Part shown: positions 15,987 through 38,860 of the stretch, piece after piece
Layout: each line of letters begins with the position of its first letter
Numbering within the stretch: the stretch's first letter is position 1
Source of the DNA: Bacillota bacterium
GTDB taxonomy: Bacteria; Bacillota; Sulfobacillia; JAUYEF01
NCBI GenBank assembly: GCA_030691635.1
Contig: JAUYEF010000134.1
Coordinates: 1 to 49,180 of the forward strand
Reading direction: 5' to 3'
Length of the DNA stretch: 49,180 nt
Made by a program: the position numbers and the translations under genes
Notes under the pieces: model-generated
What the model was told of the DNA's origin: nothing
Database searches by the model: none
Seen by the model: the letters and a program-made list of their open reading frames with translations, nothing else

Positions 15987-16022
15987 AGGCTGTCCCGCCG
16001 CTTGTGGGACAGCCTCTTCTTT
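15987..16022 (+). terminator. Rho-independent terminator after the propeller gene
   Basis: AGGCTGTCCC at 15987-15996 pairs with GGGACAGCCT at 16006-16015 around a nine-base loop, followed by CTTCTTT. The perfect 10-bp stem is 74 bases after the stop codon. It overlaps the first codons of the ORF-track version of the next gene, arguing for a later start there. Confidence 0.85.
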
Positions 16023-16102
16023 GGGAAGGAATGCCTGCCCGCATGCAAGAAGAAAGCACCACGGTCATGGTGCGAAGATTGCCAGAAACTCAGCTGGAGG
16101 GG

Positions 16103-17704: not shown

Positions 17705-17713
17705 GGGCGCGAT

Positions 17714-18241
17714 GTGACGGCAAAGGGATTGGTGCTGGTCTATACCGGTGACGGGAAGGGAAAGACCACTGCCGCGGTGGGGCTGGGCCTCAGGGCAACC
17801 GGCCACGGCTTGAGAGTCAAAATGCTTCAGTTCATGAAGGGACCGGGCAATGTTTACGGGGAGACTCTCGCCATATCCGGCCACGTCCCGGGGTTCGAGA
17901 TCGAGCAGGTGGGGCGAGACACCTTCGTCAAGAAGGGAAGTCCTGCGCCTGAGGATATTGAGGCGGCCAGGGCCGGGCTGGAGGCTGCGCGGCGGGCTCT
18001 GGACGGGACCTACGATCTGGTGATCCTCGACGAACTCAACGTGGCCATAGACTTCGAGCTGGTCGGCGTAGACGACGTGCTCCACCTGTTGCGTTCGAGG
18101 GCGCCGTGGGTGGACGTCGTCGTGACCGGACGGTACGCTCCAGCGCAGATGATCGAACTGGCCGACATGGTGAGCGAGGTCCGGGAGATCAAGCACCACT
18201 TCAAGAAGGGCGCCGGCGCGCGCAAGGGAATCGAGTACTAA
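17714..18241 (+). CDS. cobO: Cob(I)alamin adenosyltransferase, CobA/CobO type
   Basis: A 175-residue P-loop protein that transfers the adenosyl group of ATP to cob(I)alamin or precursors. The P-loop is YTGDGKGKTTAAVG at the N terminus, the corrin/ATP segment includes LQFMKGPGNVYGE, and Walker B is LVILDELNVAIDFEL. VVVTGRYAPAQMIELADMVSE and the KHHFKKGAGARKGIEY C terminus are hallmarks of the family. Start is GTG 17714, ten bases after the amidohydrolase stop, so the two are probably in one unit. No other cobalamin genes are nearby; some CobA-like proteins occur alone in catabolic clusters needing adenosylcobalamin. Confidence 0.9.
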   Translation: MTAKGLVLVYTGDGKGKTTAAVGLGLRATGHGLRVKMLQFMKGPGNVYGETLAISGHVPGFEIEQVGRDTFVKKGSPAPEDIEAARAGLEAARRALDGTYDLVILDELNVAIDFELVGVDDVLHLLRSRAPWVDVVVTGRYAPAQMIELADMVSEVREIKHHFKKGAGARKGIEY

Positions 18242-18272
18242 CGCCAGTACTGGCACGAAAGGGGAGCATAGC

Positions 18273-19085
18273 ATGAAAAGCGTTCTGCTTCACGAGGTCA
18301 CTCGGAGTGCGTTTGAGGAGTACCTTAAGGAGAACCCAGACCCAATAGCTCTCGTCCCCATCGGGTCCATCGAACAGCACGGCCCGCATCTTCCACTGGG
18401 CACCGACAGCCTCGCGGCGCTGGCCACCTGCACGGAAGTGGCGAAGCGGACAAACTCGTTCGTGGTGCAGGTCTGCCTGCCGGGCTATTCTCCTCATCAC
18501 ATGGCGTTCAAAGGCACGATCACCTTCAGCGATGAAACGCTCACGAACATACTGCTCGACACGTTCCAGAGCCTCAGGGCGCACGGCGTGAAGAAGATCC
18601 TTGTGGTGAACTCACACGGTGGCAACGCCCAGATAATGGCGTACGCAATCAGGATAGGAAAGCGGAAGACAGGAGCCTGTATAGTGTCGCCTGCGGCCGT
18701 CGTGGCGGATCCGAAAGCGGCCGCCCAGAACGCGATCAAGTATCTTGACATGCACAGCGGCACCGGCGAGACAAGCCTGGCGCTGGCGTTGTTCCCGGAG
18801 ATGGTGGAGATGGAGCGAGTCAGGGACTGGAAGCCCACCACGAAGCTTGTGCCCGGCGCCGACGATCTTGCCTGCCCGGACCGCGATGATGTCGCCATGG
18901 CCCTGCAGGTGGTCATGTCGTACATAAACGATACCCACAAGCTAACTTCGTCCGGAGTCTACGGCTACGCACCCCCGCAGAACGCAAACGCGGAACTCGG
19001 GCGCAAGCGGTTCGAAGAGCGCGTGAGTTTCCTCGTCGATTATGTTAACCTATGGAAGACAGTGCCGTCTCCCGAGGAGGTGTGA
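18273..19085 (+). CDS. Creatininase family amidohydrolase
   Basis: The 270-residue protein contains all creatininase-family signatures: ALVPIGSIEQHGPHLPLGTD near residue 30, with the first metal Glu/His/Asp; HHMAFKGTITFS; VVNSHGGNAQ; and HSGTGETSLAL with the late glutamate. Members open cyclic amides (creatinine) or act on N-formyl and other amide bonds, for example in coenzyme F420 or mycofactocin pathways. No mycofactocin or F420 genes are present, so amide hydrolysis in a scavenging pathway is the most that can be said. GGGGAGC precedes the ATG. Its 3' end is followed closely by the M28 peptidase start. Confidence 0.88.
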   Translation: MKSVLLHEVTRSAFEEYLKENPDPIALVPIGSIEQHGPHLPLGTDSLAALATCTEVAKRTNSFVVQVCLPGYSPHHMAFKGTITFSDETLTNILLDTFQSLRAHGVKKILVVNSHGGNAQIMAYAIRIGKRKTGACIVSPAAVVADPKAAAQNAIKYLDMHSGTGETSLALALFPEMVEMERVRDWKPTTKLVPGADDLACPDRDDVAMALQVVMSYINDTHKLTSSGVYGYAPPQNANAELGRKRFEERVSFLVDYVNLWKTVPSPEEV

Positions 19086-19087
19086 TC

Positions 19088-20446
19088 TTGTCAAGACCGG
19101 ATCTGAGTTCGATCGACAAAGCGATCCTGGGCGAGGGCTGGCTCTCGGATGAGCCTTACCGCAACGTGGAAGCCATGTCAGACCTTGGCTCCAGGTTCGG
19201 CGGCACAGAGAGCGAGAAGAAGGCCATCGATTTCCTCTCGGCCAGGATGCGCGAGTACGGCTTCGAGAATGTGCATACCGAAGCTTTCCAGTATGCCGGG
19301 TGGACCAGAGGCACCGTCAGCCTGGAGATCACTTCTCCACAAAAAGCTGCGCTCGATTCCATAAGCCTACCGTACACAGGCACGTCGGACGTTGAGGCAG
19401 AGGTCGTGAACCTTGGATACGGCACGCCCGGAGAGTGGGAGTCCAACAAAGACAGGATCAAGGGCCGGATAGTGCTGGTGGACGCGAAGTCGCCCGTGTA
19501 CTTCAGGCGGGGCATCCACAGGCTTGAGAAGTATGGAAGAGCAGTGTACCATGGAGCGGTGGGGTTCATCTGGATGCGAGACCAGGGTGGTTTTCTTGCA
19601 GAGACGGGTGGGCTGCGGCCGGGCGCCGAGATACCTGGAGTGGGGGTATCAAAAGAGACCGGCGAGCAGATCAAGAGGCTAATGCGGAACGGGCGCGTGA
19701 GAGTGCGCATCCAGACCAAGAACGACCAGCATGAGGCCATCACTGCCAACGTTGTGGGCGACATCCCGGGCCAGGCGCTCGAGGACCACGTGATCGTGAT
19801 CGGGGCGCATTTTGACGGCCATGACATCGCGACGGGTTCGCTGGACGATGCATCGGGCGCCGCCGTCGTGCTTGAGGCAGGGAGGCTGCTCGCGCAGCAC
19901 CGAGGTGCGCTTGCGCGGACTGTCAGGCTGATCTGCTTCCCGGTCGAAGAGATCGGGCTCTACGGTTCGAAGGCGTACGTGAAGGAGCATGCCGGCCATC
20001 TCGGCCAGTTTGACTTCATGTTGAACCTGGACGGGGCAGGCAGGGAGGGGGACAAGGGCATAGCCCTCCAGGACTTCACCGAGCTCATCCCGTTCTTCAA
20101 GGACGTGGCCAGGGACATGAAGTGGCCCATGATAGTCGACAATGCATTCGGGATGCATTCGGATATGTACCCGTTTTCCCTGGCAGGTGTGCCGAGCGGC
20201 AACCTATCGGTGATGGAAGCCGTCAGGACCGGAAGGGACTGGGGGCACACCGCGGCGGACACGATCGACAAGGTGTCCGCCCGTCACCTGCGCGGCGACT
20301 CGATCCTGGTCGCCCGCACGATGCTCAGGGCCGCGGTCTGGGAAGACATGCCGTCAAGGCACAAGACGGATGAGGAAGTGCAGGAGGTCCTGAGACAGAA
20401 CGGGCTTTCGCAGGTATTGAGCCTGAACCGGCCCGTTCCGCGGTGA
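19088..20446 (+). CDS. M28 family aminopeptidase with inserted PA domain
   Basis: A di-zinc aminopeptidase of the M28 family, 452 residues. An N-terminal cap (about 1-75) leads to a PA-type insert (VNLGYGTPGEWESN through SKETGEQIKRLM), which often governs substrate entry. The catalytic core has zinc ligands in GAHFDGHD, SLDDASGAA and CFPVEEIGLYGSKAYV, with a further Asp in MLNLDGAG and the last His in DWGHTAADT. No signal peptide is seen, suggesting cytoplasmic action on imported peptides. The ORF track start at 19052 overlaps the creatininase gene; TTG 19088, with GAGGAGG seven bases before it, is the likely start. Linkage suggests shared amide/peptide breakdown. Confidence 0.88.
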   Translation: MSRPDLSSIDKAILGEGWLSDEPYRNVEAMSDLGSRFGGTESEKKAIDFLSARMREYGFENVHTEAFQYAGWTRGTVSLEITSPQKAALDSISLPYTGTSDVEAEVVNLGYGTPGEWESNKDRIKGRIVLVDAKSPVYFRRGIHRLEKYGRAVYHGAVGFIWMRDQGGFLAETGGLRPGAEIPGVGVSKETGEQIKRLMRNGRVRVRIQTKNDQHEAITANVVGDIPGQALEDHVIVIGAHFDGHDIATGSLDDASGAAVVLEAGRLLAQHRGALARTVRLICFPVEEIGLYGSKAYVKEHAGHLGQFDFMLNLDGAGREGDKGIALQDFTELIPFFKDVARDMKWPMIVDNAFGMHSDMYPFSLAGVPSGNLSVMEAVRTGRDWGHTAADTIDKVSARHLRGDSILVARTMLRAAVWEDMPSRHKTDEEVQEVLRQNGLSQVLSLNRPVPR

Positions 20447-20605
20447 GGTTGCGGTAGGCAGGCGCAATCGAAGCGCCCGGGATGAGGCGACCCGGGGGAA
20501 CTTCTTGAGCGTGTGTACAGCGGTGGCGGCTCCGGCAGGTGTGAGATCTGCTGCAGCAACAGACGCACAACTATTCCAAACCCTATACGTGCCGGAGGTT
20601 TTGTG

Positions 20606-22201
20606 ATGGGTCTCGACCGGATCTCGCTCGGCATATGGGCTTTTGCCGCTTTGCCCCTGGCGGTCCTGCTCGTGGGATTGCTCAGGTTCAGGTGGTCGGC
20701 GCCCAAAGCGGGCGCGGTGGCGTGGATCGCCGCCATGGCCGTGGGCGCCTTTGTCTTTGGCGGGAGCCCTTTCGGTCTATCACTGGCAAATGCCAAAGGC
20801 CTCAGCCTCACGCTCTTCGTCGTGACCATCATATGGACGTCCGTGCTCCTCTACAATGTGGTCGAGCAGTCTGGGGCCGTGAAGACGATATCCCAGAGGA
20901 TGACCCGGCTGGTCGGCGAGCCGCTTTTGCAGTGCTTGTTGCTGGCCTGGTGCCTTTCGGCTTTTATCCAGGGCATCACCGGGTTCGGAGTGCCGGTCGC
21001 GATCGTGGCTCCCCTCATGCTCGCCGTGGGGTTCGAGCCGGTGACGGCGGCCGTCGCGACACTGGTGGGGCACGCCTGGTCGGTCACGTTCGGCTCCATG
21101 GCAGGGCCTTTTTACGCGCTCCAGCTTGTCACCAAGCTGCCGGCCAGAGAATCCGCCTACTGGATCGGGGCGATGCTCTTTGTGCCCACAGTCCTGACAG
21201 GCTTCGCCGTCGCGCACATCTACGGTGGCGTGCGTTCGATGGCACAAGGCGCGCCTGCGGTCATTCTGACCGGTGTCGCGATGGGGCTCACACAATGGGC
21301 ACTGCCTGTCCTCGGGGCGCCTCAGATCGGGTCGGTCGCCGCCGGCCTTGTCGGGACGGTCGTGATCGTGCTCATCTCGCGGCTCGGGCCATACCGTGAA
21401 ACGAGCCGCACTGAGCGGCAGGATGACGGCCAGCGCGACGGCGCGCCGCCCGCGATGGGCCTTCACGTGGCGCTCGCGCCATACTACCTGCTGATCGCGC
21501 TGGCCCTGGCAAGCCAGACGCCGACGCTCAAACAGCTCGGCAAGACCCTCGCGTGGGGCCTCGACTACCCCCAGACCTCCACTGCGCTGGGTTTTGCGGT
21601 GAAGGCCGAGAAATCGTACGCGGCCATAAGCCTCATCTCGCACCCGGCGCCGCTGCTCGTGGCGTCGGTGATCGCCGCAATCGCCGTCTATGCCGGGTCG
21701 AGACACCTGTCGGCATCCTCTGTTCGCAAGGCATGGTCGGTGACGACGGAACAGTGTGTTCCGACAACGGTGAGCATCGCGACGATGGTCATGATGGCGC
21801 TTGTCATGAACGACACGGGAATGACGTCGACGCTGGCCAGGGGAATCGCCCCTGTGGCGGGGAAACTATTCCCCCTGGTATCACCGTACATCGGTGTGCT
21901 GGGCTGTTTCATGACGGGCAGCAACACGAACTCAAATGTGCTGTTCGGCGCGTTCCAGGTGGAGACCGCGCTCGCGCTCGGCGTGAGCACCAGGATCATG
22001 GCTGCGGTCCAGTCGGCGGGTGGCTCGCTGGGAAGTGCGATCGCGCCCGCGAAGGTGCTGATAGGCTCGACCACGGTCGGCCTTTCGGGCCGCGAGGACC
22101 TGGTCATGAGGAAGTCGATCCCTTACTGCATGCTGCTGGTCCTGGTGCTCGGCGTTATCTCGTGGTTCTCCGTATACGTGCTATTCCCACAAGTCATGTG
22201 A
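20606..22201 (+). CDS. LctP-type permease (L-lactate permease family)
   Basis: A 531-residue polytopic protein with about 12-13 hydrophobic helices. Family signatures include QGITGFGVPVAIVAPLM, VGHAWSVTFGSMAGPFYALQ, GCFMTGSNTNSNVLFGAFQ and AGGSLGSAIAPAKVLIGSTT; the last two are characteristic of lactate/glycolate permeases driven by H+ or Na+. The substrate may be lactate, glycolate or another 2-hydroxy acid, and other substrates are possible in this distant member. ATG 20606 has GGAGG seven bases upstream; the ORF track start at 20513 adds a polar 31-residue leader without support. Around it sit peptidase and decarboxylase-pump genes, which fits organic-acid handling. Confidence 0.85.
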   Translation: MGLDRISLGIWAFAALPLAVLLVGLLRFRWSAPKAGAVAWIAAMAVGAFVFGGSPFGLSLANAKGLSLTLFVVTIIWTSVLLYNVVEQSGAVKTISQRMTRLVGEPLLQCLLLAWCLSAFIQGITGFGVPVAIVAPLMLAVGFEPVTAAVATLVGHAWSVTFGSMAGPFYALQLVTKLPARESAYWIGAMLFVPTVLTGFAVAHIYGGVRSMAQGAPAVILTGVAMGLTQWALPVLGAPQIGSVAAGLVGTVVIVLISRLGPYRETSRTERQDDGQRDGAPPAMGLHVALAPYYLLIALALASQTPTLKQLGKTLAWGLDYPQTSTALGFAVKAEKSYAAISLISHPAPLLVASVIAAIAVYAGSRHLSASSVRKAWSVTTEQCVPTTVSIATMVMMALVMNDTGMTSTLARGIAPVAGKLFPLVSPYIGVLGCFMTGSNTNSNVLFGAFQVETALALGVSTRIMAAVQSAGGSLGSAIAPAKVLIGSTTVGLSGREDLVMRKSIPYCMLLVLVLGVISWFSVYVLFPQVM

Positions 22202-22224
22202 GATGCCCGGAGGGTGGCTTTGCG

Positions 22225-23064
22225 ATGAGGGATGGCGGGGTCAGGCTTGTGGCCGTCGATATTGACGGCACACTGCTCGACAAGCATCACATGATCGGCG
22301 AGAGCGCGCGCCTCGCGAAGAAGATCTGCGATACTCGCGGGGTGGCTTTCACGGTCGCGACCGGGCGGGTTTCCACGTCCGCTGAGGTTGTCGCGTGCGA
22401 GCTCGGCATCACGACGCCGCTCATCGCCAACGGCGGCGCGACGATAAAGGTGCCGGGGGGGCCGTACCTGCGTGTGCTCGCGCTACCGGGCGAGGCGGCG
22501 CGCCGCGCGATAATGGCCGCCAGGCGGTACCCGGTGGAGCGGTATGTGTTTACCGGCGAGTGCTACGTGACCGAAACGCTCTGCGAGGAGACCTTGCCGT
22601 ACTCACAAGCACTCGGCATACCGATCCAGGAGGTCAGAGACCTCGTCCAGGCGACCACCGGAGGCGCCATCAGCCTTGTGTTGAGGGCCAACCGGTTCGA
22701 GCCGGGGCACGAGCAACTCGCAGACCGTCTCAAGGCTGAGATCGAGGCTCTGTCGGCGGGGGAATTCCGAGTCGAGAAGACGCTCCCGCACCTGCTGGAA
22801 GTGCTCCACCGCGGCGCGAGCAAGGGAGAGGCGCTCAGGGCCCTCTGTGATATGCTCACGGTGCCTCTGGCATCTTCCATGGCCATCGGGGACGGCTTCG
22901 GCGACATCGACATGATAGACGCGGCAGGCATTGGCGTACTGGTCGCGAATGCACACCCGAGCCTATCCGGCGGTTCGAGGAAGAGAACGCGCGCTTCCCA
23001 CGCGGACGGGGTGCTCGAGGCGGTGCGGGCATTTGTCCTTGGAGAGAGTGGCGCGACCCTGTAG
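22225..23064 (+). CDS. Cof-type HAD phosphatase
   Basis: A HAD-superfamily hydrolase with type IIB (Cof) cap, 279 residues. The catalytic motif is AVDIDGTLLDKHH (motif I Asp nucleophile and general acid Asp), motif II lies in FTVATGRVSTS, the lysine is in HRGASKGEALRAL, and motif IV is MAIGDGFGDIDMIDAAG. The last is slightly changed from the usual GDGxND. The substrate is likely a sugar phosphate or small phosphorylated metabolite. The 503-residue ORF-track entry begins inside the permease gene in a shadow frame; the real gene starts at ATG 22225 after CGGAGGG. It lies 23 bases after the permease stop. Confidence 0.88.
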   Translation: MRDGGVRLVAVDIDGTLLDKHHMIGESARLAKKICDTRGVAFTVATGRVSTSAEVVACELGITTPLIANGGATIKVPGGPYLRVLALPGEAARRAIMAARRYPVERYVFTGECYVTETLCEETLPYSQALGIPIQEVRDLVQATTGGAISLVLRANRFEPGHEQLADRLKAEIEALSAGEFRVEKTLPHLLEVLHRGASKGEALRALCDMLTVPLASSMAIGDGFGDIDMIDAAGIGVLVANAHPSLSGGSRKRTRASHADGVLEAVRAFVLGESGATL

Positions 23065-23138
23065 GACAGCGGCGTGACCCGGTGGAGGCCGCCCGGCTCC
23101 CACGGACCCCTCACGGATACGATAGGAGACAACGACTG

Positions 23139-24242
23139 ATGCTGGATCTGCTGATAGGCAATGTGCTGAGGATCGATCCGGGTTCACTCGTGATGGTGGC
23201 TGTGGGCATTGTGCTGCTCTACCTGGCCATCGTGCGCAGTTACGAGCCCATGCTGCTCATACCCATCGGGTTCGGAGCCATTCTCGCGAACATTCCTGGC
23301 TCCTCTGCAGTGGGAGAGCACGGGTTTCTGACCATCCTCTATGACGCCGGCATAGTCACCGACCTGTTCCCGATCCTGATCTTCATCGGTGTCGGAGCGA
23401 TGATTGACTTCGGGCCGCTGCTCTCGCAGCCGGAGATGTTCATATTCGGAGCGTCTGCACAGTTTGGGATATTCTTCACGATGATCGTGGCCGCTCGGTT
23501 CGGCTTTTCGCTGAGGGAGGCCGCGTCGATCGGAGTCATCGGCGCCGCCGACGGACCGACTTCGATCTACGTGGCGAGCCGTTTCGCGCCCCACCTGCTG
23601 GGCCCGATTTCTGTGGCCGCCTATTCGTACATGAGCATGGTCCCCATCATCCAGCCCCCCGTGATCAGGGCGCTGACCACCAGCCGCGAGCGCAAGATCA
23701 GGGTGCAGTTCGAATCCAGGTCGGTTTCCAAGTTTGCGCGAGTGGCGTTCCCCGTGCTGGTCACGTTGACCGCCGGGATCGTCGCCCCTGAGAGCGTCGC
23801 GCTCGTGGGGGCTCTGATGTTCGGCAACCTGCTCCGAGAGTCGGGAGTCACCCCGATGCTCTCAAAGTCCGCCCAGAACGAACTGGTCGGCCTGGTCACG
23901 CTGCTGCTCGGGATTACGGTGGGCTCATCCATGAAGGCTGAGACTTTCCTCAGGCTCGAGACGCTGCTCGTGCTCGGCATGGGGCTGGTCGCGTTCGCCA
24001 TGGACACCGCAGGCGGCGTGCTGTTCGCTAAACTGCTGAACCTCTTTCTGCCACGGAAGATCAACCCGATGATCGGCGCCTGCGGCATCTCAGCATTTCC
24101 GATGTCTGCCAGGATCGTCCACAAGATGGGACTCGAGGAGGACCCTCACAACTTCCTCCTCATGCAGGCGGTCGGGGCGAACGTGGCAGGCCAGATCGCG
24201 TCCGTGGTCGCCGGCAGCCTTCTTCTGGCTCTCATAAGGTGA
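23139..24242 (+). CDS. Sodium-pumping decarboxylase, beta subunit (OadB/GcdB/MmdB)
   Basis: The membrane subunit of biotin-dependent decarboxylases that use decarboxylation of carboxybiotin to export Na+. The 367-residue protein is almost all hydrophobic and carries the family hallmarks: LIFIGVGAMIDFGPLL, VIGAADGPTSIYVASRFAP with the essential Asp, SYMSMVPIIQPPVIRALTT, and GANVAGQIASVVAG. ATG 23139 follows AGGAG; the earlier ORF-track start has no ribosome site. The carboxyltransferase (alpha) and biotin-carrier genes are missing here and presumably lie elsewhere. The next small ORF looks like the gamma subunit. Substrate (oxaloacetate, methylmalonyl-CoA, glutaconyl-CoA, malonate) cannot be told from beta alone. 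Confidence 0.92.
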   Translation: MLDLLIGNVLRIDPGSLVMVAVGIVLLYLAIVRSYEPMLLIPIGFGAILANIPGSSAVGEHGFLTILYDAGIVTDLFPILIFIGVGAMIDFGPLLSQPEMFIFGASAQFGIFFTMIVAARFGFSLREAASIGVIGAADGPTSIYVASRFAPHLLGPISVAAYSYMSMVPIIQPPVIRALTTSRERKIRVQFESRSVSKFARVAFPVLVTLTAGIVAPESVALVGALMFGNLLRESGVTPMLSKSAQNELVGLVTLLLGITVGSSMKAETFLRLETLLVLGMGLVAFAMDTAGGVLFAKLLNLFLPRKINPMIGACGISAFPMSARIVHKMGLEEDPHNFLLMQAVGANVAGQIASVVAGSLLLALIR

Positions 24243-28670: not shown

Positions 28671-28711
28671 GAAAGAGGCATGGGAGAACGCTCGCTATGG
28701 AGGTGTCTCGG

Positions 28712-30379
28712 TTGCCAGGTAGTGTGTCCGGCTCAAGACTGGTGTCGGCGCCCCGCGGCACGACGCTGTCCTGCAAGGCGTGGCCGCAGGAAGCGGCCAT
28801 GAGGATGATCATGAACAACCTCGACCCTGAGGTGGCGGAGAAGCCCCAGGAACTCATCGTATACGGCGGCACGGGCAAGGCCGCGCGCAACTGGGAGTGC
28901 TTCGATGCCATCGTTTCTTCCCTTAAGACGCTTGATGACGACGAGACTCTGCTTGTCCAGTCCGGCAAGCCTGTCGGTGTGTTCCGCACCCACGAGCTCG
29001 CGCCACGCGTCCTCATCTCCAACGCGATGCTGGTGCCCGCATGGGCCACCTGGAAGAACTTCTGGGAGCTCGAACAGCGCGGCCTGACCATGTTCGGCCA
29101 GATGACGGCCGGCAGCTGGATCTATATCGGAAGCCAGGGTATCCTGCAGGGAACGTATGAGACTCTCGCGGAGGTCGCAAGACAGCATTTCGGCGGTAGT
29201 CTGGCTGGAAGGCTCGTGCTGACCGCGGGGCTCGGGGGCATGGGCGGCGCCCAGCCCCTGGCAGTGACGATGAACGAGGGAGTCGCGCTTGTGGTTGAGG
29301 TGGACCCAGGGCGGATCCGGCGGCGGCTGGAGACAGGCTACCTGGACGTCGTCGCGGAAAGCCTCGAGCACGGCCTGGCCATGGCGCTGGAGGCGAAGCG
29401 AGAGAAGCGGGCGTTGTCGGTGGCGATTGTCGGGAACGCGTCGGATGTGCATCCGGAGATCGTCCGTCGGTGCATAGTGCCGGATGCCGTGACCGACCAG
29501 ACATCGGCGCATGACGCGCTCGACGGGTATGTCCCAGGACGCATGGGTTACGAGGAAGCCAAAGACCTCAGGCGCAAAGACCGCGACGCCTACCTGGAAG
29601 CCTCCATGAGCAGCATGGCGCGGCACTGCGAGGCCATGGTGGCGATGAAGGACCAGGGAGCGGTGGTGTTCGACTACGGCAACAACCTCCGTGCTCAGGC
29701 ACAGATCGCCGGGTTCTCCAGGGCTTTCGACTACCCTGGGTTCGTGCCGGCCTACATCAGGCCGCTGTTCTGCGAGGGGAAGGGACCCTTCAGGTGGGTC
29801 GCGCTTTCAGGCAACCCGGAAGACATACTGACCACCGACAGGGCTGTGCTCGACCTGTTCCCGCGCAACGAGGCGCTCAGGCGGTGGATAACGCTCGCTG
29901 AGAAGCGTGTGAAGTTCCAGGGTTTGCCCTCCAGGATATGCTGGCTGGGGTACGGCGAGCGCAGGGAATTCGGGCTTGCGATCAACGACCTGGTGCGCTC
30001 GGGAAAACTCAAGGCCCCAATCGTCATCGGCCGTGACCACCTGGACACGGGCTCGGTCGCCTCACCCAACAGGGAAACCGAAGGCATGAGAGACGGGAGC
30101 GACGCCATCGCGGACTGGCCGGTGCTGAACGCCCTGCTGAACACGTCTGCGGGCGCTACATGGGTCTCGGTCCACCACGGCGGAGGGGTCGGCATCGGCT
30201 ACTCGATCCACGCCGGGATGGTGGTGGTCGCCGACGGCACGGATCAGGCCGCATGGAGGCTCGACAGGGTGCTGACCACCGACCCGGGTTCCGGCGTGAT
30301 GAGGCACGCCGATGCTGGGTACCCGCGAGCCGTCGAGTTCGCCAAAGAGTCCGGGATCAAGATACCCATGCTGAAATAG
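28712..30379 (+). CDS. hutU: Urocanate hydratase
   Basis: Urocanase converts urocanate to imidazolone propionate in histidine catabolism, using tightly bound NAD+ as an electrophile. Diagnostic segments are [37 protein letters not shown], the NAD-binding [25 protein letters not shown], and the active-site cysteine in [18 protein letters not shown]. About 555 residues is the family length. ATG 28697 itself forms part of GGAGGTG, a perfect Shine-Dalgarno seven bases before TTG 28712, so TTG is the likely start. Other hut genes (hutH, hutI, hutG) are not in the window. Neighbouring regulator and M20 peptidase may belong to the same amino-acid use locus. Confidence 0.95.
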
Positions 30380-30411
30380 GGATCGTGCCCCTTCACTTGC
30401 TTGACAGGCTG

Positions 30412-30456
30412 CCGCCTCCATCTGTTTTCAAACAGAACTGGAGGCGGTGTGGTTTT
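30412..30456 (+). terminator. Probable terminator between hutU and the regulator gene
   Basis: CCGCCTCCA at 30412-30420 pairs with TGGAGGCGG at 30439-30447. Inside, TCTGTT pairs with AACAGA around TTCA, with two bulged bases (AC), giving a long 15-bp hairpin. It is followed by TGTGGTTTTG. It lies 33 bases after the hutU stop. An attenuator of the regulator gene is an alternative reading. Confidence 0.65.
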
Positions 30457-30522
30457 GTGAAGGAAGAGAATGGTAATTGTAGAACGTATGAGCAGTGAGT
30501 CCCCGCTCTAGGAGGTGCCGCA

Positions 30523-32382
30523 ATGTGCGCGATGGTTGGAGCGATTGTCGGTGAGCGCGAGCTGGCGGAGATCATTACGCAAGTCTCGCACCAGATGGGG
30601 CAGGATGTGCCCTGCGTGGAGACCACGCCTGAGGGGCTTGTAGGAGCTCTCCGGCTCATGGAACCGCACGGAGTCAGGGCGCTGATCAGTTCAGGCAGGC
30701 TGGTCGACCTGTTGAAATCCGCGACGTCCTTGCCTGTCGTGCCGTGCAATCCCAGCTCGTACGATCTCACCCTCGCCATAGCGAGAGCCAGGGCATACTC
30801 AACAAAGATAGCTTTCCTGTACTTCGGTGAACTGCCCATCAACCTTGGGGAAATGGAAGACTGCCTGGGGATCTCCGTCGGGGCGTTCCAGTCCGGCAGA
30901 AACGCCCAGGACGTGAGGAAGGGGCTCGATCAGGTCAGGGCGGACGGGTATGACGTGCTCGTCAGCGGCGGGGCTGTCGCCGCCATGGCCAGGGGCATGG
31001 GGCTTTCCTCTGTGGCGGTCCGGACAGGCAACGCGACCGTCCGGGAATGCATCGATTCCGCCCTTGATGTTGTCCGCACACAGCAGGCTGGAGAAAGGCG
31101 CACCGCGGCGGCGCAGGCGGCGGTCGAATCTGTGGGCGTCGGGCTCATGGTGACCGAGCGTGACGGCACGGTGCTGTTGATGAACTCAAGCGCCCGGGAC
31201 ATTTCGGGCACGGCCGTCGCCTCTCTGGCGCAGGATGTGCTCGGCCCTGGCTTGTGGGACAGGCTTTCGCCGGGTGGGTCGGCAGTGGCGACCGTCGGCA
31301 AAAGCAGGGTGGTCGTGGACGTGCAGGCCGGCCAGAAGGCCCGGGAGTTCCGCACAGTCGCCATGTTTGACCCACCGGTGCTGCGGCGCTACCTGGCGAT
31401 GCTTTCCGAAGAGACGCTCCTGGCCCCGGAACCCAAGCCCAGCGGCGAGATGGTTATGGCCTCTCCGGAGATGCAGAGCCTCTTGGCGCGCGCGCAGGAC
31501 CTGGCGCGAGGTGACGCCAACGTGCTGGTATTCGGAGAGCCCGGAGCGGGCAAGAGGACTGTGGCTTTCGCGCTCCATTCTGAGAGCCGGAGGCAGCGGG
31601 CGCCGTATTGCCAGATCAACTCGATGTTGCCTGACAACACCGTGCTCTTCGACCTTACCGGAACCTCTCGGCCGGAGGGAGAGGCCTCAGTGCTGGAGCG
31701 GGCCAGCGGTGGGACAGTGTACGTCCACGAGTGCTGGAACCTGAGTGTTGAGGCCCAACGGGTGCTGCTCGAAGCCTCAGAGAGGAAGATGCTTCGCAGG
31801 CAGGACGGCTCCAGGATACCATGCGACGTCCGCATCATGCTGGGTTCGTCCCGGCCGCTCCGCGAGCTGGTGGAGAGGGGCGCCTTCCTCCCCGAGCTCT
31901 ACAATGCGGCGGCGTCCCAGGCTTTGAGGGTGTCTCCGCTGCGTGAGCGGCAGGAGGACATACACCCTTTGCTGGAGTCCTTCTTGAAACGTGAGGGAGT
32001 GCTCGATGGGGCGGTCTCGCCATCTCTCAAGCGCAGGCTTTTGGCCTACCAGTGGCCGGGCAACTGCGCGGAGGTCAAGAACCTCGCCGCGCGGCTGGCG
32101 TCTTTCTACCGCACATTCCCGTCGGCCAACAGGGCATCCCTGGAAAGGGTCGCGTTTGATGAGATTGAGGCGGAGATGCCGTCTGTCCTCCCAAGACAGG
32201 AGGGCATGCTGACCTTGAAGCTCGGCACCATGGAATTCCTTGAAGAGCAGATCCTCGAGCAGATGGAGCGCCTCTCTGGTGGCAACAGGTCAGAGATGGC
32301 GCGGAGGCTCGGTGTGAGCAGGACGACGCTATGGAAGAAGATGCTGCACGGAAGACAGGCGGCAGCGGGCGAAGAGGAGTAG
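30523..32382 (+). CDS. PrpR-N/PAS/degenerate AAA+/Fis-HTH transcriptional regulator
   Basis: A 619-residue NtrC-like regulator. Residues about 1-185 resemble PrpR_N, a two-lobed ligand sensor (LPVVPCNPSSYDLTLAIARA, VLVSGGAVAAMARGMGL). A PAS-like domain follows (about 200-300; GVGLMVTERDGTVLLMNSSA). The AAA+ domain (about 310-560) keeps Walker A, GEPGAGKRT near 337. It lacks the GAFTGA loop through a deletion between INSMLPDN and GGTVYVHECW, has His for the Walker B Asp, and changes sensor II from WPGNVREL to WPGNCAEV. The Fis-type HTH is SGGNRSEMARRLGVSRTTLWKK. It probably does not activate sigma-54 polymerase; TyrR-like control of a sigma-A promoter is possible. AGGAGGT precedes the ATG. The hutU and M20 genes flanking it are plausible targets. 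Confidence 0.85.
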   Translation: MCAMVGAIVGERELAEIITQVSHQMGQDVPCVETTPEGLVGALRLMEPHGVRALISSGRLVDLLKSATSLPVVPCNPSSYDLTLAIARARAYSTKIAFLYFGELPINLGEMEDCLGISVGAFQSGRNAQDVRKGLDQVRADGYDVLVSGGAVAAMARGMGLSSVAVRTGNATVRECIDSALDVVRTQQAGERRTAAAQAAVESVGVGLMVTERDGTVLLMNSSARDISGTAVASLAQDVLGPGLWDRLSPGGSAVATVGKSRVVVDVQAGQKAREFRTVAMFDPPVLRRYLAMLSEETLLAPEPKPSGEMVMASPEMQSLLARAQDLARGDANVLVFGEPGAGKRTVAFALHSESRRQRAPYCQINSMLPDNTVLFDLTGTSRPEGEASVLERASGGTVYVHECWNLSVEAQRVLLEASERKMLRRQDGSRIPCDVRIMLGSSRPLRELVERGAFLPELYNAAASQALRVSPLRERQEDIHPLLESFLKREGVLDGAVSPSLKRRLLAYQWPGNCAEVKNLAARLASFYRTFPSANRASLERVAFDEIEAEMPSVLPRQEGMLTLKLGTMEFLEEQILEQMERLSGGNRSEMARRLGVSRTTLWKKMLHGRQAAAGEEE

Positions 32383-32412
32383 TCCCAGACCTGAGGAAAC
32401 GGGGGAGCGACC

Positions 32413-33564
32413 ATGACCCTGGACCATATCCTGGCAGACGAGAGCGTGCTGCGAGGGCTTGACTTCCTTGAATCTCATGAGGAAGATGTGATAGAAGAGA
32501 TCTCACGGATCGCCGCCATACCTTCCCCGAGCTATCACGAGCAGGAGCTTGCGGAGTACTACGCGGGGAGGCTCAGGGAGGTAGGGGTCGAGGATGTCAC
32601 GATCGACTCCGAGCGCAACGCGTATGGCGTCATCCGGGGCACGGACGGGCATCCGGCATTGCTCATGAACGCCCACCTGGATACTGTGTTCCCTCTCGGG
32701 ACAAACCTTACAGTGAGGCGCGAGGGCTCCAGGCTGTTCGCGCCCGGGATCGGCGACGACTCCACCGGACTGGCGGCCGTGCTGTGGGCCGCGAGGGCGG
32801 TCAAGGAATCCGGCGTCAGGCTCCGTGGCGACCTCATAGTGGCGGGCAACAGCTGCGAGGAAGGGCTCGGCGATCTCAGGGGCATGAAAGCGCTGATGCA
32901 GGCTCTGAAGGGCCGCGTGGACATGGTCGTCCCGGTGGAGCCTTCCAGCCTGGGCAGGATCGCCAACCAGGGCGTCGGTTCGAGGCGCTTCCGGATCACG
33001 GCGCGCACGCATGGAGGGCACAGCTGGGGCGCGTTCGGGAATCCCAGCGCGATCCATGTGCTGTGCCAGGTGGTCGCGGATATCTCTTCGATCAAAGTGC
33101 CGAGGGAGCCGAAGACCACGTATAACGTTGGCAAGTTCTCGGGTGGTGTTTCCGTGAACACAATAGCGCCGGAGGCGACCCTGGAACTGGACATGAGGTC
33201 GGTCGACGCCACAGAGCTCGCAAACGTCGAAGAAAAGGTACACTCGATCCTGGCGGCTCGTTCCAGGGAATCCGGGGTGGCGCTGGAGACGGTCCTGGTC
33301 GGAGACCGGCCTCCGGGCACGACGCCCGAGTCGCATCCTCTTATATCGAAGATACGTGAGGTCCACGGTGCGCTCGGCATCAAGTCGTTCCTGCATGCCG
33401 GCAGCACGGATGCGAATGTTCCGATGTGGATGGGCGTTCCCGCCGCCACGGTCGGCGTCACGACAGGCGGGAACGGCCACAGGGTGGACGAGTATATCGA
33501 CTTGGAGCCGCTGGGCAAGGGACTCGCGCAGCTGTTCCTGCTGATGACATACCTACTGTCCTGA
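32413..33564 (+). CDS. M20 family metallopeptidase/deacylase
   Basis: A di-zinc hydrolase of the ArgE/DapE/CPG2 group, 383 residues. Metal ligands are in LLMNAHLDTVFP, FAPGIGDDSTGLA and SCEEGLGDLRGMKA, with the catalytic glutamate in that last segment; the late His is in FLHAGSTDANVPMWMG or GNGHRVDEYIDL. The middle dimerisation domain lies at about 185-290. Substrates of this family include N-acylamino acids and dipeptides; a succinyl-DAP role is unlikely by position. CGGGGGAGCGACC precedes the ATG, 30 bases after the regulator stop, so cotranscription with the regulator is likely. Confidence 0.87.
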   Translation: MTLDHILADESVLRGLDFLESHEEDVIEEISRIAAIPSPSYHEQELAEYYAGRLREVGVEDVTIDSERNAYGVIRGTDGHPALLMNAHLDTVFPLGTNLTVRREGSRLFAPGIGDDSTGLAAVLWAARAVKESGVRLRGDLIVAGNSCEEGLGDLRGMKALMQALKGRVDMVVPVEPSSLGRIANQGVGSRRFRITARTHGGHSWGAFGNPSAIHVLCQVVADISSIKVPREPKTTYNVGKFSGGVSVNTIAPEATLELDMRSVDATELANVEEKVHSILAARSRESGVALETVLVGDRPPGTTPESHPLISKIREVHGALGIKSFLHAGSTDANVPMWMGVPAATVGVTTGGNGHRVDEYIDLEPLGKGLAQLFLLMTYLLS

Positions 33565-33601
33565 TCGGTATGCACGCAGAAGGGTTCCGGGAGGTGCTTT
33601 C

Positions 33602-36289
33602 ATGAGGCGAATCCAGATCTCGCTTGGGGCGATACTCCTGGCGGCCGGGATAGCGGCCGTGCTGGTGCTGACCACAGCGGGGTTGTTCACCAGCTGGCTC
33701 TGGTTCCAAGAGGTTGGCTACGCCGCCGTGTTCCTGAAGATGATCACAGCGCGTCTCGTGCTCGGTGTGGTCGGGGGTCTGCTGTTCGGCGGGTTCTTGC
33801 TCTTGAACCTGCTGTACGCCAACGGGCTCAAACCACGGATGCAGCTTGTCACCGGCGATGTGATAGAACCCCAGGTGGCAACGCCTTTCCGCGTGGGATT
33901 CCTCGCGCTTCTGGCCGGCGCGGCAGCGGCGTGGGTGGCCGGGTTCTCGCTGTCTCTGCAGTGGCTCGTCGTCCAGAGGTTTTTGAACAGCCAGCCGTTT
34001 GGCCTTGCCGACCCGGTCTTCGGCAGGGACGCAGGTTTCTATGTGTTCGAGCTGCCTTTCTACTCCCTGGTCTACCAATATGTGTTCTCGCTGGTAGTGG
34101 TGAGCATCGCAGGTTCTGCGGCAGTGTACCTGCTGTCCGGCGGCCTGCTCTCCCTGGGGCAGGGACGGCTGAGCTTTCACCCCAGAGCCAAAGTCCACCT
34201 CTCGGTGCTGGCCGGCCTGGCTTTCCTCACGCGGGCCGCCGGGTACTTCATCGAGTTGGCCAGGCTGGTCTATTCGCCCAGAGGAGTGGCGTTTGGAGCG
34301 AGCTACACCGATATTCACGCTGAGATACCTGCGCTGAAGACGCTGATCGCGCTCGCGGTTGTCGCGTCTGTGGTGACGATCCTGACGGCGGCCAGGCGAA
34401 GCGCGCGGCCGGCGATCATAGCGTTCGCCGCTCTTGTGGTTGTGTCGCTGCTCCTCCGCCAGGGCTACACGACACTCGTGCAGCAGATATCCGTTGGGCC
34501 TGACGAGATCGCCAAGGAGCGCCCGTACATCGAGCACAACATCAAAGCGACACGGATAGCGTTCGGGCTCGATCGCGTGAGCGAGCGAGACTACCCGGCG
34601 GAGACAGCTCTGAGCCGCGAATCGCTGCAGCAGAACGCCGACACCATACAGAACATCAGGCTGTGGGACTGGCGTCCGTTGAAGCAGACGTACTCACAGT
34701 TGCAGGAGATCAGGCTTTACTACACGTTCAATGACGTGGACCTCGACAGGTACTTTGTGGACGGGAAATACAAGCAGGTCACCCTGGCCGCGCGAGAGAT
34801 GAACCAGGCGAACCTGGCTCAACAGGCCAAGACGTGGGTCAACCAGCATCTCAAGTTCACCCACGGGTACGGCATGGTGATGAGCCCCGCCAACGAAGTC
34901 GGCCCACAGGGCCTTCCACTGTTCTACGTGAAGGACATACCACCGCGGGCGTCCACCGACATCAAGGTCACCAGACCGGAGATCTACTTCGGCGAGCTGA
35001 CGCGCGAGTACGTGATCGTGAACACGCGCGAAGGCGAGTTCGACTATCCTCTCGGCGACGAGAACGCGCAGACACAGTACCAGGGGAAGGCCGGCATCCC
35101 GGTCGGCTCTTTCATGAGACGGATCGCGTTTGCGCTGAAGTTCCGGAACTACGAGATAGCGCTGGCGAGCGCGATTTCCTCCAAGAGCCGGATGATTATG
35201 AATAGGGACCTCATGACCAGGGTCACAGCCATCGCGCCCTTCCTGCGATACGACAGCGACCCGTACCTGGTCGTCGACGACGGCCGGCTCTTCTGGTTCA
35301 TAGACGCCTACACTGTGTCATCCGGGTTTCCTTACTCGGAGCCGTCGCCTCGCGGGTTCAACTACATCCGGAACTCGGTGAAGGTGGTCATAGACGCATA
35401 TGAGGGAGACACGAAGTTCTACCTGTTCGACACCATCGACCCGGTGGTGAAGAGCTACTCGGCCATATTCCCGACGCTCTTCCGGCCGTTCAGCGAGATG
35501 CCGGAAGGTCTGAAGAAGCATATCAGGTACCCCGCCGACCTGTTCGAAGTGCAGGCCGCGATGTACACGACATACCACATGCAGGACCCGGTCGTCTACT
35601 ACAACAAAGAAGACCTCTGGAGCCTGCCGGCTCAGGGCAAGCAGGGCGGGCAGCAGGCCATGGAGTCGTACTACATGATCATGAGGCTGCCCGGCGAGAA
35701 GAACGCGGAATACGTGCTGTTGATGCCCTTCACTCCGTCCAAGAAACAGAACATGATAGCCTGGCTGGCGGCGCGGTCCGACGAGCCGAACTACGGGCAG
35801 CTGGCGCTGTTCAAGTTCCCGAAGGACAAGCTGATCTACGGCCCGTCCCAGGTTGACGCGCGTATAGACCAGGACGCCGAAATATCTCCCAAGCTCACGC
35901 TCTGGGGACAGGCGGGGTCGCAGGTCATCAGGGGCAACATGCTGGTCATCCCGATCAACGGGTCCATACTCTACGTTGAGCCGATGTACCTCCAGTCGGC
36001 GGATACCAAGCTTCCTGAGCTGAAGAGGATAATCGTGGCCTACGGCGACCGGGTGGTCATGGAGGACACGCTCGAGAAGGCGCTCACGGCGATATTCGGG
36101 GCGGCCACGCAGCAGCCGGGGCCCCAGCCGCCGTCGGGCACGGAGACCGTGCAGCAGTTGATCGCGAGAGCGGTCACGCTTTACAACGAAGCACGGCGGG
36201 CGATACAGGCGGGCGACTGGGCGGCGTACGGGAACCTGCAGAGACAGCTCGGGGAAGTGCTGAGCCAGCTCGAGAACAGGTCCCGGTAG
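33602..36289 (+). CDS. UPF0182 family large membrane protein
   Basis: An 895-residue protein of the UPF0182/COG1615 family. The first 300 residues contain about seven hydrophobic helices with the typical WLWFQEVGYAAVFLK near the N terminus. The rest is a large hydrophilic, presumably extracytoplasmic region with family landmarks: SVGPDEIAKERPYIEHNIKA, LTLWGQAGSQVIRGNMLVIP and the C-terminal AGDWAAYGNLQRQLGEVLSQL. No enzymatic function is established for the family. GGGAGGTGC precedes the ATG. It lies between an M20 peptidase and asnS with short spacers, but there is no functional reason to link them. Confidence 0.92.
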   Translation: MRRIQISLGAILLAAGIAAVLVLTTAGLFTSWLWFQEVGYAAVFLKMITARLVLGVVGGLLFGGFLLLNLLYANGLKPRMQLVTGDVIEPQVATPFRVGFLALLAGAAAAWVAGFSLSLQWLVVQRFLNSQPFGLADPVFGRDAGFYVFELPFYSLVYQYVFSLVVVSIAGSAAVYLLSGGLLSLGQGRLSFHPRAKVHLSVLAGLAFLTRAAGYFIELARLVYSPRGVAFGASYTDIHAEIPALKTLIALAVVASVVTILTAARRSARPAIIAFAALVVVSLLLRQGYTTLVQQISVGPDEIAKERPYIEHNIKATRIAFGLDRVSERDYPAETALSRESLQQNADTIQNIRLWDWRPLKQTYSQLQEIRLYYTFNDVDLDRYFVDGKYKQVTLAAREMNQANLAQQAKTWVNQHLKFTHGYGMVMSPANEVGPQGLPLFYVKDIPPRASTDIKVTRPEIYFGELTREYVIVNTREGEFDYPLGDENAQTQYQGKAGIPVGSFMRRIAFALKFRNYEIALASAISSKSRMIMNRDLMTRVTAIAPFLRYDSDPYLVVDDGRLFWFIDAYTVSSGFPYSEPSPRGFNYIRNSVKVVIDAYEGDTKFYLFDTIDPVVKSYSAIFPTLFRPFSEMPEGLKKHIRYPADLFEVQAAMYTTYHMQDPVVYYNKEDLWSLPAQGKQGGQQAMESYYMIMRLPGEKNAEYVLLMPFTPSKKQNMIAWLAARSDEPNYGQLALFKFPKDKLIYGPSQVDARIDQDAEISPKLTLWGQAGSQVIRGNMLVIPINGSILYVEPMYLQSADTKLPELKRIIVAYGDRVVMEDTLEKALTAIFGAATQQPGPQPPSGTETVQQLIARAVTLYNEARRAIQAGDWAAYGNLQRQLGEVLSQLENRSR

Positions 36290-36319
36290 TCTCAACAGCA
36301 TATCGGAGGTGTTTGTGGG

Positions 36320-37615
36320 TTGCAGCACATCAGGATAGAGGACGCAGCAGGGTACGTGGGAGAAGAAGTCGAGATACGCGGCTGGGTGTACAATAAGCGT
36401 TCCTCCGGCAAGGTGCGCTTTCTCATAATACGCGACGGCACCGGCTTCATGCAGTCAGTGGCTGCAGCCGGCGACATGGCGCAAGACGGGTTCGAACTGA
36501 CCGACAGCGTCACTCAGGAATCCTCGGTCATAGCCCATGGCACCGTCCGCGCGGACTCCCGCGCGCCCGGCGGGCATGAACTTCTGCTCACAGGCCTCAA
36601 GCTGGTGGCGCTCGCCGAGGAGTACCCTCTCGCGCTGAAAGAGCACGGCACGGACTTCCTGATGGACCACAGGCACCTCTGGCTCAGGACGCCGAGGCAG
36701 CATGCCATAATGCGGGTGCGGTCAGAGGTCATCCGGGCGATACGCGACTGGCTGGACGACAATGGCTTCATCCTGATCGACACGCCCATACTCACGCCTG
36801 CGGCGTGCGAGGGCACCACCACACTGTTCGAGACGACCTACTTTGAGGAGAAGGCGTACCTGGCCCAGAGCGGCCAGCTGTACAACGAAGCGGACATCGG
36901 CGCGTTCGGTCGCGTGTACTGCTTCGGGCCGACCTTCCGGGCGGAGAAGTCTAAGACCAGACGGCACCTCACGGAATTTTGGATGGTCGAGCCGGAGGCG
37001 GCCTTCTGCGACTTCGAAGAGAACATGGTCATCCAGGAGAACCTGGTGTCCTTCATCGTGTCTAGAGTGCTCGAGCGGCGAACCGCCGAACTCGAGACAA
37101 TCGGCAGGGATATCGAGCCGCTCAAGCGCGTCAAGCCACCTTTCGCGAGGGTCACATACGATGAAGCAATAGACATCATCAACAAGCAGGGCGCGGGCCC
37201 GGTGAGCTGGGGCGACGACTTTGGCGCGCCGCATGAGACCGCCGTTGCGAGAGCTTTCGACAAGCCCGTGTTCGTGATGAAATACCCGGCCGCGATCAAG
37301 GCGTTCTACATGAAGCCGGATGCCGCACGGCCGGAAGTGGTGCTCGGTTCGGACCTGCTGGCGCCTGAAGGATACGGCGAGATCATCGGCGGCGGTGAGC
37401 GCATCGACGAGAAAGAGCTGCTCATACGGCGCATACGAGAGCACAACCTGCCCATGGAAGCGTTCAAGTGGTACATCGACCTCAGGCGTTACGGGGCGGT
37501 CCCGCACAGTGGGTTCGGGCTCGGCATCGAGCGTTCTGTGGCCTGGATCTGCAATCTGGAGCACGTCCGTGAGACGATACCGTTCCCGCGGCTGCTCAAC
37601 AGGATGTACCCTTAG
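36320..37615 (+). CDS. asnS: Asparaginyl-tRNA synthetase
   Basis: A class II aminoacyl-tRNA synthetase that charges tRNA-Asn. The N-terminal OB fold (about 1-105; [23 protein letters not shown]) binds the anticodon. Motif 2 is [24 protein letters not shown] and motif 3 is [12 protein letters not shown] near the C terminus. [10 protein letters not shown] is the usual AsnRS/archaeal-type AspRS loop, and I favour AsnRS from the overall pattern. The 431-residue length is standard. Start is TTG 36320, nine bases after GGAGGT. A hairpin with T-rich tail follows the stop. Confidence 0.92.
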
Positions 37616-37640
37616 CGCGAGATCACGCTCCGAGTCATCA

Positions 37641-37689
37641 AGCCCCCAGGGCCCCAATAGGCTATGTTAGCCGGGTCCGAGGGGGCTTT
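37641..37689 (+). terminator. Terminator-like hairpin after asnS
   Basis: AGCCCCC at 37641-37647 pairs with GGGGGCT at 37681-37687, and an inner GGCTA/TAGCC stem closes a short loop, followed by TTTGTCGTT. The structure overlaps the ORF-track ATG 37664 of the next gene, so that gene more likely starts at TTG 37694. Confidence 0.55.
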
Positions 37690-37693
37690 GTCG

Positions 37694-38860
37694 TTGCGCA
37701 GCAGAGCATATACACGCATCTTCGCCCTGCTGTTCCTCGTGGTGGTGACCGCCGCGCCCCTGCGTCCGGCAAGAGCGGCGAGCTCTTCCGTCGCTTCCCC
37801 CAGGATAACGGCCGACGCAGGCATCCTGATGGACTTCACCACAGGAGTGGTGCTGTTCGAGAAGAAGGCTCACGAGCTTCGCCACCCCGCGAGCCTCACC
37901 AAGATCATGACCGCCATCGTCGTCCTCGAGACATGCGGGCTGCAAGACGTCGTGACGGTCACGACGGAGGCGACGCGCGTCTCCGGCTCGCGGGCCGGCA
38001 TAAGGCCCGGCCAGAAGTTCACCGTCGAAGACATGCTCTACTCGCTGCTGCTGGAGTCGGCCAATGACGTGGCGCTTGCCCTCGCGGTCCATGTGGCCGG
38101 CTCGGTCCCATGGTTTGCCAAGATCATGAACGAGAAGGCCTGGGAGGCAGGCGCGAGGAACACACACTTCTCCAACCCGCACGGGCTCACCGAGCCAGAC
38201 CACCTTGCCACGGCTTACGATCTGGCTCTGCTGGCCCGGCACGCGCTCCGCTACCCGCTTTTCGCCGAAGCGGTGAGAACGCGTGTCGCGGAGATCGACA
38301 GGCTGGACAAGCCAGTGGTGCTGCGTCTCCACAACACCAACAAGCTCTTGCAGCATTTCGAAGGGGCGGATGGCGTGAAGACCGGCACCACAAGCGCCTC
38401 AGGACGATCGCTGGTGGCCTCCGCCACAAGAGACGACCACAAGCTGGTGAGCGTCGTGCTGCACAGCGACTCGCGCTGGGACGATGCTGCCAGGCTGCTG
38501 GACTACGGTTTCGACAGGTTCGTGCTGCTTTTTCCCTACAGGCGCGGCGACATGGTCCAGACAGTGAGGGTCAAGGGCGGCATGGAAAGCAGGGCCACGC
38601 TGGTCGCCGGGGACGACCTTGCGGTCGTCGCGCCTCGCGAGTACGCCTTACGCCTGGAACTGTCCGACCTTCCTCGGACCATCGATGCCCCTTGCCTGAC
38701 CACCAGGCCTGCTTGCCGGCTGGCTGCGTTCCTTGACGGGCGCGAGCTTGCATCCATACCCCTCTACCCAAAGCGCGACGTCAGGCCCCGTACCCTCTGG
38801 CGGATATTCCTCGCTCACGTGCTCTTGCCGCTGTCCAGGCTGCTCTCCGGTGCAGGATAG
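37694..38860 (+). CDS. D-alanyl-D-alanine carboxypeptidase (S11, DacF/DacB-like)
   Basis: A penicillin-binding protein that trims the terminal D-Ala from pentapeptides. The signal peptide is YTRIFALLFLVVVTAAPLRP, preceded by a basic MRSRA. The active-site SxxK is in HPASLTKIMTA (Ser67, Lys70), SxN in LLESANDVALALA, and KTG in GADGVKTGTTSASGRS. The C-terminal PBP5-like domain and a final hydrophobic helix (IFLAHVLLPLSRLLS) suggest membrane anchoring. TTG 37694 after GAGGGGGC is favoured over ATG 37664, which lies within the terminator hairpin. Sporulation versus vegetative role is open. Confidence 0.92.
   Translation: MRSRAYTRIFALLFLVVVTAAPLRPARAASSSVASPRITADAGILMDFTTGVVLFEKKAHELRHPASLTKIMTAIVVLETCGLQDVVTVTTEATRVSGSRAGIRPGQKFTVEDMLYSLLLESANDVALALAVHVAGSVPWFAKIMNEKAWEAGARNTHFSNPHGLTEPDHLATAYDLALLARHALRYPLFAEAVRTRVAEIDRLDKPVVLRLHNTNKLLQHFEGADGVKTGTTSASGRSLVASATRDDHKLVSVVLHSDSRWDDAARLLDYGFDRFVLLFPYRRGDMVQTVRVKGGMESRATLVAGDDLAVVAPREYALRLELSDLPRTIDAPCLTTRPACRLAAFLDGRELASIPLYPKRDVRPRTLWRIFLAHVLLPLSRLLSGAG

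Follow-up and report, generated by a model that had tools for sequence, protein, structure and literature searches.

A clade of PrpR_N-type regulators without the GAFTGA motif kept at a hutU-asnS locus in Sulfobacillia

The window, by which we mean the whole stretch of 49,180 nucleotides analysed (contig JAUYEF010000134.1 of a Bacillota bacterium of the class Sulfobacillia), carries a regulator gene between hutU and an M20 peptidase gene, with genes for a UPF0182 membrane protein and an asparaginyl-tRNA synthetase-like protein following (Table 1). The proximity of hutU and the M20 gene, pointed out in the initial annotation, is real and is shared by one distant orthologue. No prp genes were seen at the locus. 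The host genome carries hutH and hutI together on another contig (C51), so the histidine pathway is apparently present, with hutU separate from these two genes. Upstream, a cluster at 16004-24242 holds genes that were named by reading the sequence (D-aminoacylase, creatininase, M28 peptidase, a lactate-permease-like protein, a HAD protein and an OadB-like protein), which suggests a region for amino-acid and peptide breakdown; genome G013 also has M28 and creatininase genes near its own hutU, as in the window.

Table 1. Features of the regulator locus in the window.
Feature	Position	Strand	Details
hutU, urocanate hydratase, upstream neighbour	28697..30379	+	Urocanase N, middle and C domains
Inverted repeat in the hutU/regulator gap	30412..30447	+	fold -36.9 kcal/mol, z -4.9 vs shuffles; terminator-like match
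Upstream element TGTGAAGGAAGAGAAT	30456..30471	+	also present in G035, G014 and G051; may be an operator or an element of the 5' leader
Regulator open reading frame	30523..32382	+	intact, 619 aa; ORF and domain calls
PrpR_N sensor domain	30604..31086	+	residues 28-188; Pfam PF06506, 97.3 bits (cut-off 29.1), E 9.6e-28
Weak PAS-like stretch	31114..31242	+	residues 198-240; PAS_8 16.2 bits vs cut-off 21.8, sub-threshold
Degenerate AAA+ sigma-54-activator domain	31453..31932	+	residues 311-470; PF00158 (Sigma54_activat) 71.9 bits
Walker A GEPGAGKR	31534..31557	+	Lys kept; alignments
Replacement of the sigma-54-contact loop, TVLFDLTGTSRPEGEASVLERAS	31639..31707	+	no GAFTGA, ~8 residues short; alignments
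Walker B VYVHE	31717..31731	+	Asp to His, Glu kept; alignments
Arg-finger segment GAFLPELYNA	31879..31908	+	both Arg absent; alignments
Sensor II YQWPGNCAEVKN	32047..32082	+	Arg to Ala; alignments
Fis-type HTH	32230..32343	+	residues 570-607; HTH_8 36.5 bits
M20 peptidase	32413..33564	+	30 bp downstream of regulator; PF01546 72 bits
UPF0182 membrane protein	33602..36289	+	PF03699 992 bits; synteny
Asparaginyl-tRNA synthetase-like gene (asnS)	36320..37615	+	named by reading sequence; 61-68% identical orthologues in L044-L047

The initial annotation had described a PrpR-N/PAS regulator with an AAA+ domain; the PrpR_N, Sigma54_activat and HTH_8 domains were found by Pfam, with Sigma54_activat spanning residues 311-461, as was the AAA+ lid, whereas the PAS domain reached only a sub-threshold score. 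Profile comparison places the PrpR_N domain beside the solved structures 2q5c and 2pju. The GAFTGA loop is the sigma-54 contact of ATP-driven activators. An alignment that set the regulator against five E. coli proteins (NtrC, PspF, PrpR, TyrR and DhaR) and one canonical activator encoded in the host genome showed Walker A intact, as had been noted, and GAFTGA absent. The distance from the Asn of INSMLPDN to GGT is 29 residues in the regulator compared to 37 in L187, a canonical PrpR_N activator, and 36 in PspF, so that the loop deletion amounts to 7-8 residues and not to the 20-25 first estimated. GAFTGA is not encoded in any frame of 31600-31740, and independent orthologues also lack it, so a shifted motif, or a sequencing error or frameshift masking it, was rejected. 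The losses of the Walker B Asp and of the sensor-II Arg (WPGNVREL to WPGNCAEV) reported in the initial annotation were confirmed, and we found two further changes that it had overlooked: FRxDLYxR, which holds both Arg fingers, has become FLPELYNA, and sensor I reads GSS in place of ATN. Of the hallmarks of a sigma-54 activator, the regulator thus has Walker A and lacks GAFTGA, the Walker B DE pair, the Arg fingers and the sensor-II Arg. Its AAA+ fold was nevertheless predicted with pLDDT mostly of 80-90, except at residues ~370-390, where the loop is missing, and its structure matches in the PDB were FlrC, NtrC1, NtrX and VpsR, the best-aligned being activator AAA+ domains. The full-length AlphaFold model (pTM 0.41) was poor outside the AAA+ domain and part of the sensor, and leaves the arrangement of the domains unsupported.

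Close relatives were absent from a peptide scan of 84,980 genomes. A profile built from the orthologues of G035, G014, G051 and G013 was run against all 154 genomes of the class; these four scored at least 755 bits each, compared to 428 bits for the next match. Three more members, in the genus g27 (G058, G045 and G026), were missed by the profile and found by reading along the locus; they have a short linker in place of the PAS region. Among 399 sampled genomes of the phylum there were no further members, and the best-scoring non-clade matches fetched from that sample all have GAFTGA. The window's regulator and its seven divergent orthologues, which come from three other families, form one clade in a FastTree phylogeny calculated without the loop columns (support 0.976), within which the window groups with f15 (0.957) and G013 with g27 (0.984). 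All eight members have an open reading frame and the Walker A Lys, and all eight lack GAFTGA. In the alignments, the loop reads GAFPSA in G035, GAFPAA in G051 and GTSPSS in G014, and is deleted in the window, in G013 and in the three g27 genomes, where about 15 residues of the loop region are gone. The change in G035 and G051 is of the Thr/Ser to Pro type, which is a preferred minor deviation at position 4 of GAFTGA in a 2011 survey, where minor deviations of any kind were counted in ~110 of some 5000 activator homologues (PMC3162934). The g27 members retain both Arg fingers and sensor II, and no relative has lost as many catalytic residues as the window's member. Elsewhere, another PrpR_N activator, in the Bacillota MAG contig JAAZMP010000106 (L109:5882-7747), has lost GAFTGA separately (FGHEGDDLADTEKGGK) and is also altered in its Arg-finger segment; GSFTGA is present in its sister L107. 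A deviant loop, GMFTGG, also occurs in L030 (G021:C1:3109705-3110574), an activator-like AAA+ protein of 328 aa.

The locus of the regulator is kept in four families, in the order hutU, regulator, [M20], UPF0182, asnS and dacF. The window and G013 share hutU - regulator - M20 - UPF0182 - asnS; in g27 an acyl-CoA dehydrogenase gene stands between hutU and the regulator, and UPF0182 and asnS (with dacF in some cases) follow; in f15 the order is regulator - asnS - dacF. The orthologous regulator adjoins hutU in L047 and lies one gene apart from it in L197-L199, and in L044-L047 the asnS orthologue is next to the regulator or close to it. Three genomes of f6 and f40 have the hutU-UPF0182-asnS block without the regulator; in two of them (L201 and L203) a gene read as M20-type lies between hutU and UPF0182, and in the third (L202) no M20-type gene was seen in that interval. 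The gene block over window positions 28697-38860 is conserved across several families of the class (L044-L047, L197-L203), and hutU is present in 117 of its 154 genomes.

In the gap between hutU and the regulator, the inverted repeat may be a terminator-like hairpin of hutU or a palindromic operator. Element TGTGAAGGAAGAGAAT directly follows the repeat; the three f15 genomes share the element, 44-67 bp from the start codon. The pattern TGTGAAGRAAKRGAAY, which was derived from these four genomes themselves, has one perfect match in each of them, always just upstream of the regulator; from its 28 bits we estimate ~3 chance matches across the 154 genomes, and two stray matches were found. As a genome-wide promoter motif TGTGAAGRAAKRGAA was rejected, since its perfect match is unique in each genome, and CTGTTTTCAAACAG was rejected as a repeated operator, having only one copy in the window with 0.7 chance matches expected at two mismatches. 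A promoter scan of the region found no convincing sigma-70/sigma-A-type promoter. A perfect TTGACA hexamer lies at 30401-30406 without a good -10 partner, and the hairpin begins 6 bp after it.

The host genome (3.84 Mb in 451 contigs) was also searched for sigma-54, a check proposed in the initial annotation, and contains one rpoN and two canonical activators, with GAFTGA on C125 and GSFTGA on C323, both lacking a PrpR_N domain and 28-30% identical to the regulator. Loss of sigma-54 from the genome was therefore rejected as the cause of the missing motif, and the loss of GAFTGA is particular to the regulator. An activator with a GAFTGA-type loop was read in every clade genome except that of G013. 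Across the whole window, 16 candidate -24/-12 sites were found compared to 21.7 expected by chance, which is no excess, and around the regulator the best candidate is TGCCCCTTCACTTGCT, in which the GG is missing.

The domains of the clade have diverged unequally. Pairs of canonical PrpR_N activators with 24-36% identity in PrpR_N have a mean AAA+ identity of 64% (lowest 49.7%), compared to 35% (highest 41.5%) for clade pairs in the same range. For the HTH the relation is reversed, with 48% identity in the clade and 38% in canonical pairs at equal PrpR_N divergence, and the HTH is the best conserved domain of the clade. Within g27 and f15, the pairs that the Ka/Ks analysis covers, ratios of 0.09-0.29 were obtained for PrpR_N and AAA+ and of 0.03-0.26 for the HTH, values that are rough because several synonymous distances are near saturation; in g27 the lowest ratios fall in the lid and the HTH. 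Purifying selection keeps the gene in these relatives. To judge from these comparisons, selection is no longer maintaining the motor and the loop needed for sigma-54 activation.

The regulator was compared with known systems. PrpR and the Bacillota PrpR_N sigma-54 activators are nearest by sequence and share its domain order and sensor family but keep GAFTGA and the catalytic residues; the PrpR models scored far below their cut-offs (TIGR02329, 194.5 vs 499.2; NF011953, 174.9 vs 703). The initial annotation had likened it to TyrR, the aromatic amino acid regulator of E. coli, which also has a shortened loop without GAFTGA. However, TyrR senses through an ACT domain, has kept Walker B, the Arg fingers and sensor II intact, and carries HTH_50, whereas the regulator scored 125.7 against the TyrR model NF008085 (cut-off 576) and has no ACT match, so membership of that family was not upheld. 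DhaR, which regulates the dihydroxyacetone kinase operon of E. coli, is the nearest functional parallel because it too has lost the Arg fingers (FSRQLYYA) and the sensor-II Arg (WPGNDFEL); it likewise has an activator-type AAA+ domain without GAFTGA, a changed Walker B (LFLEK) and a Fis-type HTH. Unlike the regulator, DhaR senses through GAF and PAS domains and falls outside the clade in the tree; the regulator scored 172.2 against the NCBIfam DhaR model NF008485 (cut-off 551), with no GAF match. VpsR, which is also one of the fold matches, HupR and Caulobacter NtrC are activator homologues that met the same evolutionary fate, with sensor domains other than PrpR_N and at other loci. One mark of the activator-derived, sigma-54-independent class, loss of GAFTGA with the DNA-binding domain kept, is found in the regulator. 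TyrR, DhaR and HupR have lost GAFTGA and are sigma-70 dependent (PMC3162934; for TyrR also PMC1173090), VpsR has been judged probably not sigma-54 dependent (PMC3162934), and Caulobacter NtrC acts at sigma-70 promoters (PMC12421884).

Taken together, these results make it probable that the regulator is a sigma-54-independent, ligand-responsive regulator that derives from PrpR_N-type sigma-54 activators and acts on its own locus. The proposal of the initial annotation that a former sigma-54 activator now works without sigma-54 gains support from the eight-member clade without GAFTGA, kept at one locus in genomes that, G013 apart, have an activator read with a GAFTGA-type loop, the window's own genome also having rpoN, and the long retention next to hutU in several families suggests an ordinary ligand-sensing DNA-binding regulator. 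In such a protein, the PrpR_N domain would bind a small ligand, the AAA+ remnant would serve as a scaffold for oligomerisation or signal transmission, and the Fis-type HTH would bind DNA, so that the regulator could act as a repressor or as a recruiting activator at housekeeping-type promoters of hutU and of regulator-M20-UPF0182-asnS. That the promoter scan yielded no convincing sigma-A-type site in the region counts against this. We infer the ligand, the target genes and the direction of control from the position of the gene; the operator and the dependence on a housekeeping sigma factor are likewise presumed. The description 'ATP-insensitive' probably holds for hydrolysis, which from its catalytic residues is very unlikely in the window's protein, but not necessarily for binding, which the intact Walker A leaves possible; in the g27 relatives, where the Arg fingers and sensor II are kept beside an intact Walker A, nucleotide use may persist. 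A special case of the preferred reading, compatible with it, is that the protein binds ATP without hydrolysing it and that this binding determines its oligomeric state at sigma-A promoters; the AAA+ domain would then be a nucleotide sensor and no longer a motor. The Walker A Lys in all eight members and the confident prediction of the AAA+ fold apart from the loop are in its favour, but with the Walker B Asp, the sensor-II Arg and the Arg fingers gone, nucleotide sensing between subunits would be weakened, and we hold this switch to be doubtful.

Two other explanations depart further from the preferred one. The regulator could still act through sigma-54, either by joining a canonical activator in mixed rings, where it would be the inactive partner, or by competing for that activator's sites as an anti-activator. 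The presence of rpoN and two canonical activators in the genome would allow this, and Caulobacter NtrC mutants without GAFTGA show raised levels of some sigma-54-dependent transcripts (PMC12421884), so a protein without the motif is not necessarily independent of sigma-54. However, -24/-12 promoters are not in excess in the window, the two canonical activators lack PrpR_N and resemble the regulator only at the identity given above, and the AAA+ surface of the clade has strongly diverged, which makes such a role quite unlikely. Slightly less probable still is a decaying former activator that has no present function and is on its way to a pseudogene. The extent of catalytic loss in the window's member and the f6 and f40 genomes that do without the regulator fit such decay, but the frame is open in every member, no domain reaches a Ka/Ks of 0.3 in the testable pairs, the HTH has diverged less than that of canonical activators, and synteny is kept.

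For the origin of the sigma-54-independent regulator, we tentatively propose, with somewhat less than even confidence, that the sigma-54 contact was lost once in a vertically kept PrpR_N lineage, and that the AAA+ motor then decayed to an extent that varies between families while sensor, HTH and locus stayed. The members would form a graded series, from the g27 proteins, which look ATPase-competent with Arg fingers and sensor II intact and the loop deleted, to the window's protein with a dead motor. Because motor loss is seen at different stages among the eight members, all at a single chromosomal site, the order of events is testable. The loss of GAFTGA in activator homologues is a fate already known; three things look new, namely that the sensor is PrpR_N, that the hutU-asnS locus is fixed and that the motor has decayed by degrees. 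No description of a PrpR_N branch without GAFTGA was apparent in the literature searched, where one paper mentions both PrpR_N and GAFTGA. Automatic annotation labels the regulator and its orthologues sigma-54 activators, with PF00158 above its cut-off, which the clade members almost surely are not, as far as their sequences tell. A PrpR_N branch is thereby added to the sigma-54-independent activator homologues and, if the proposed course is true, it would offer a stepwise view of the path from a sigma-54 activator to a simple regulator that is switched by a ligand and controls histidine breakdown and asnS.
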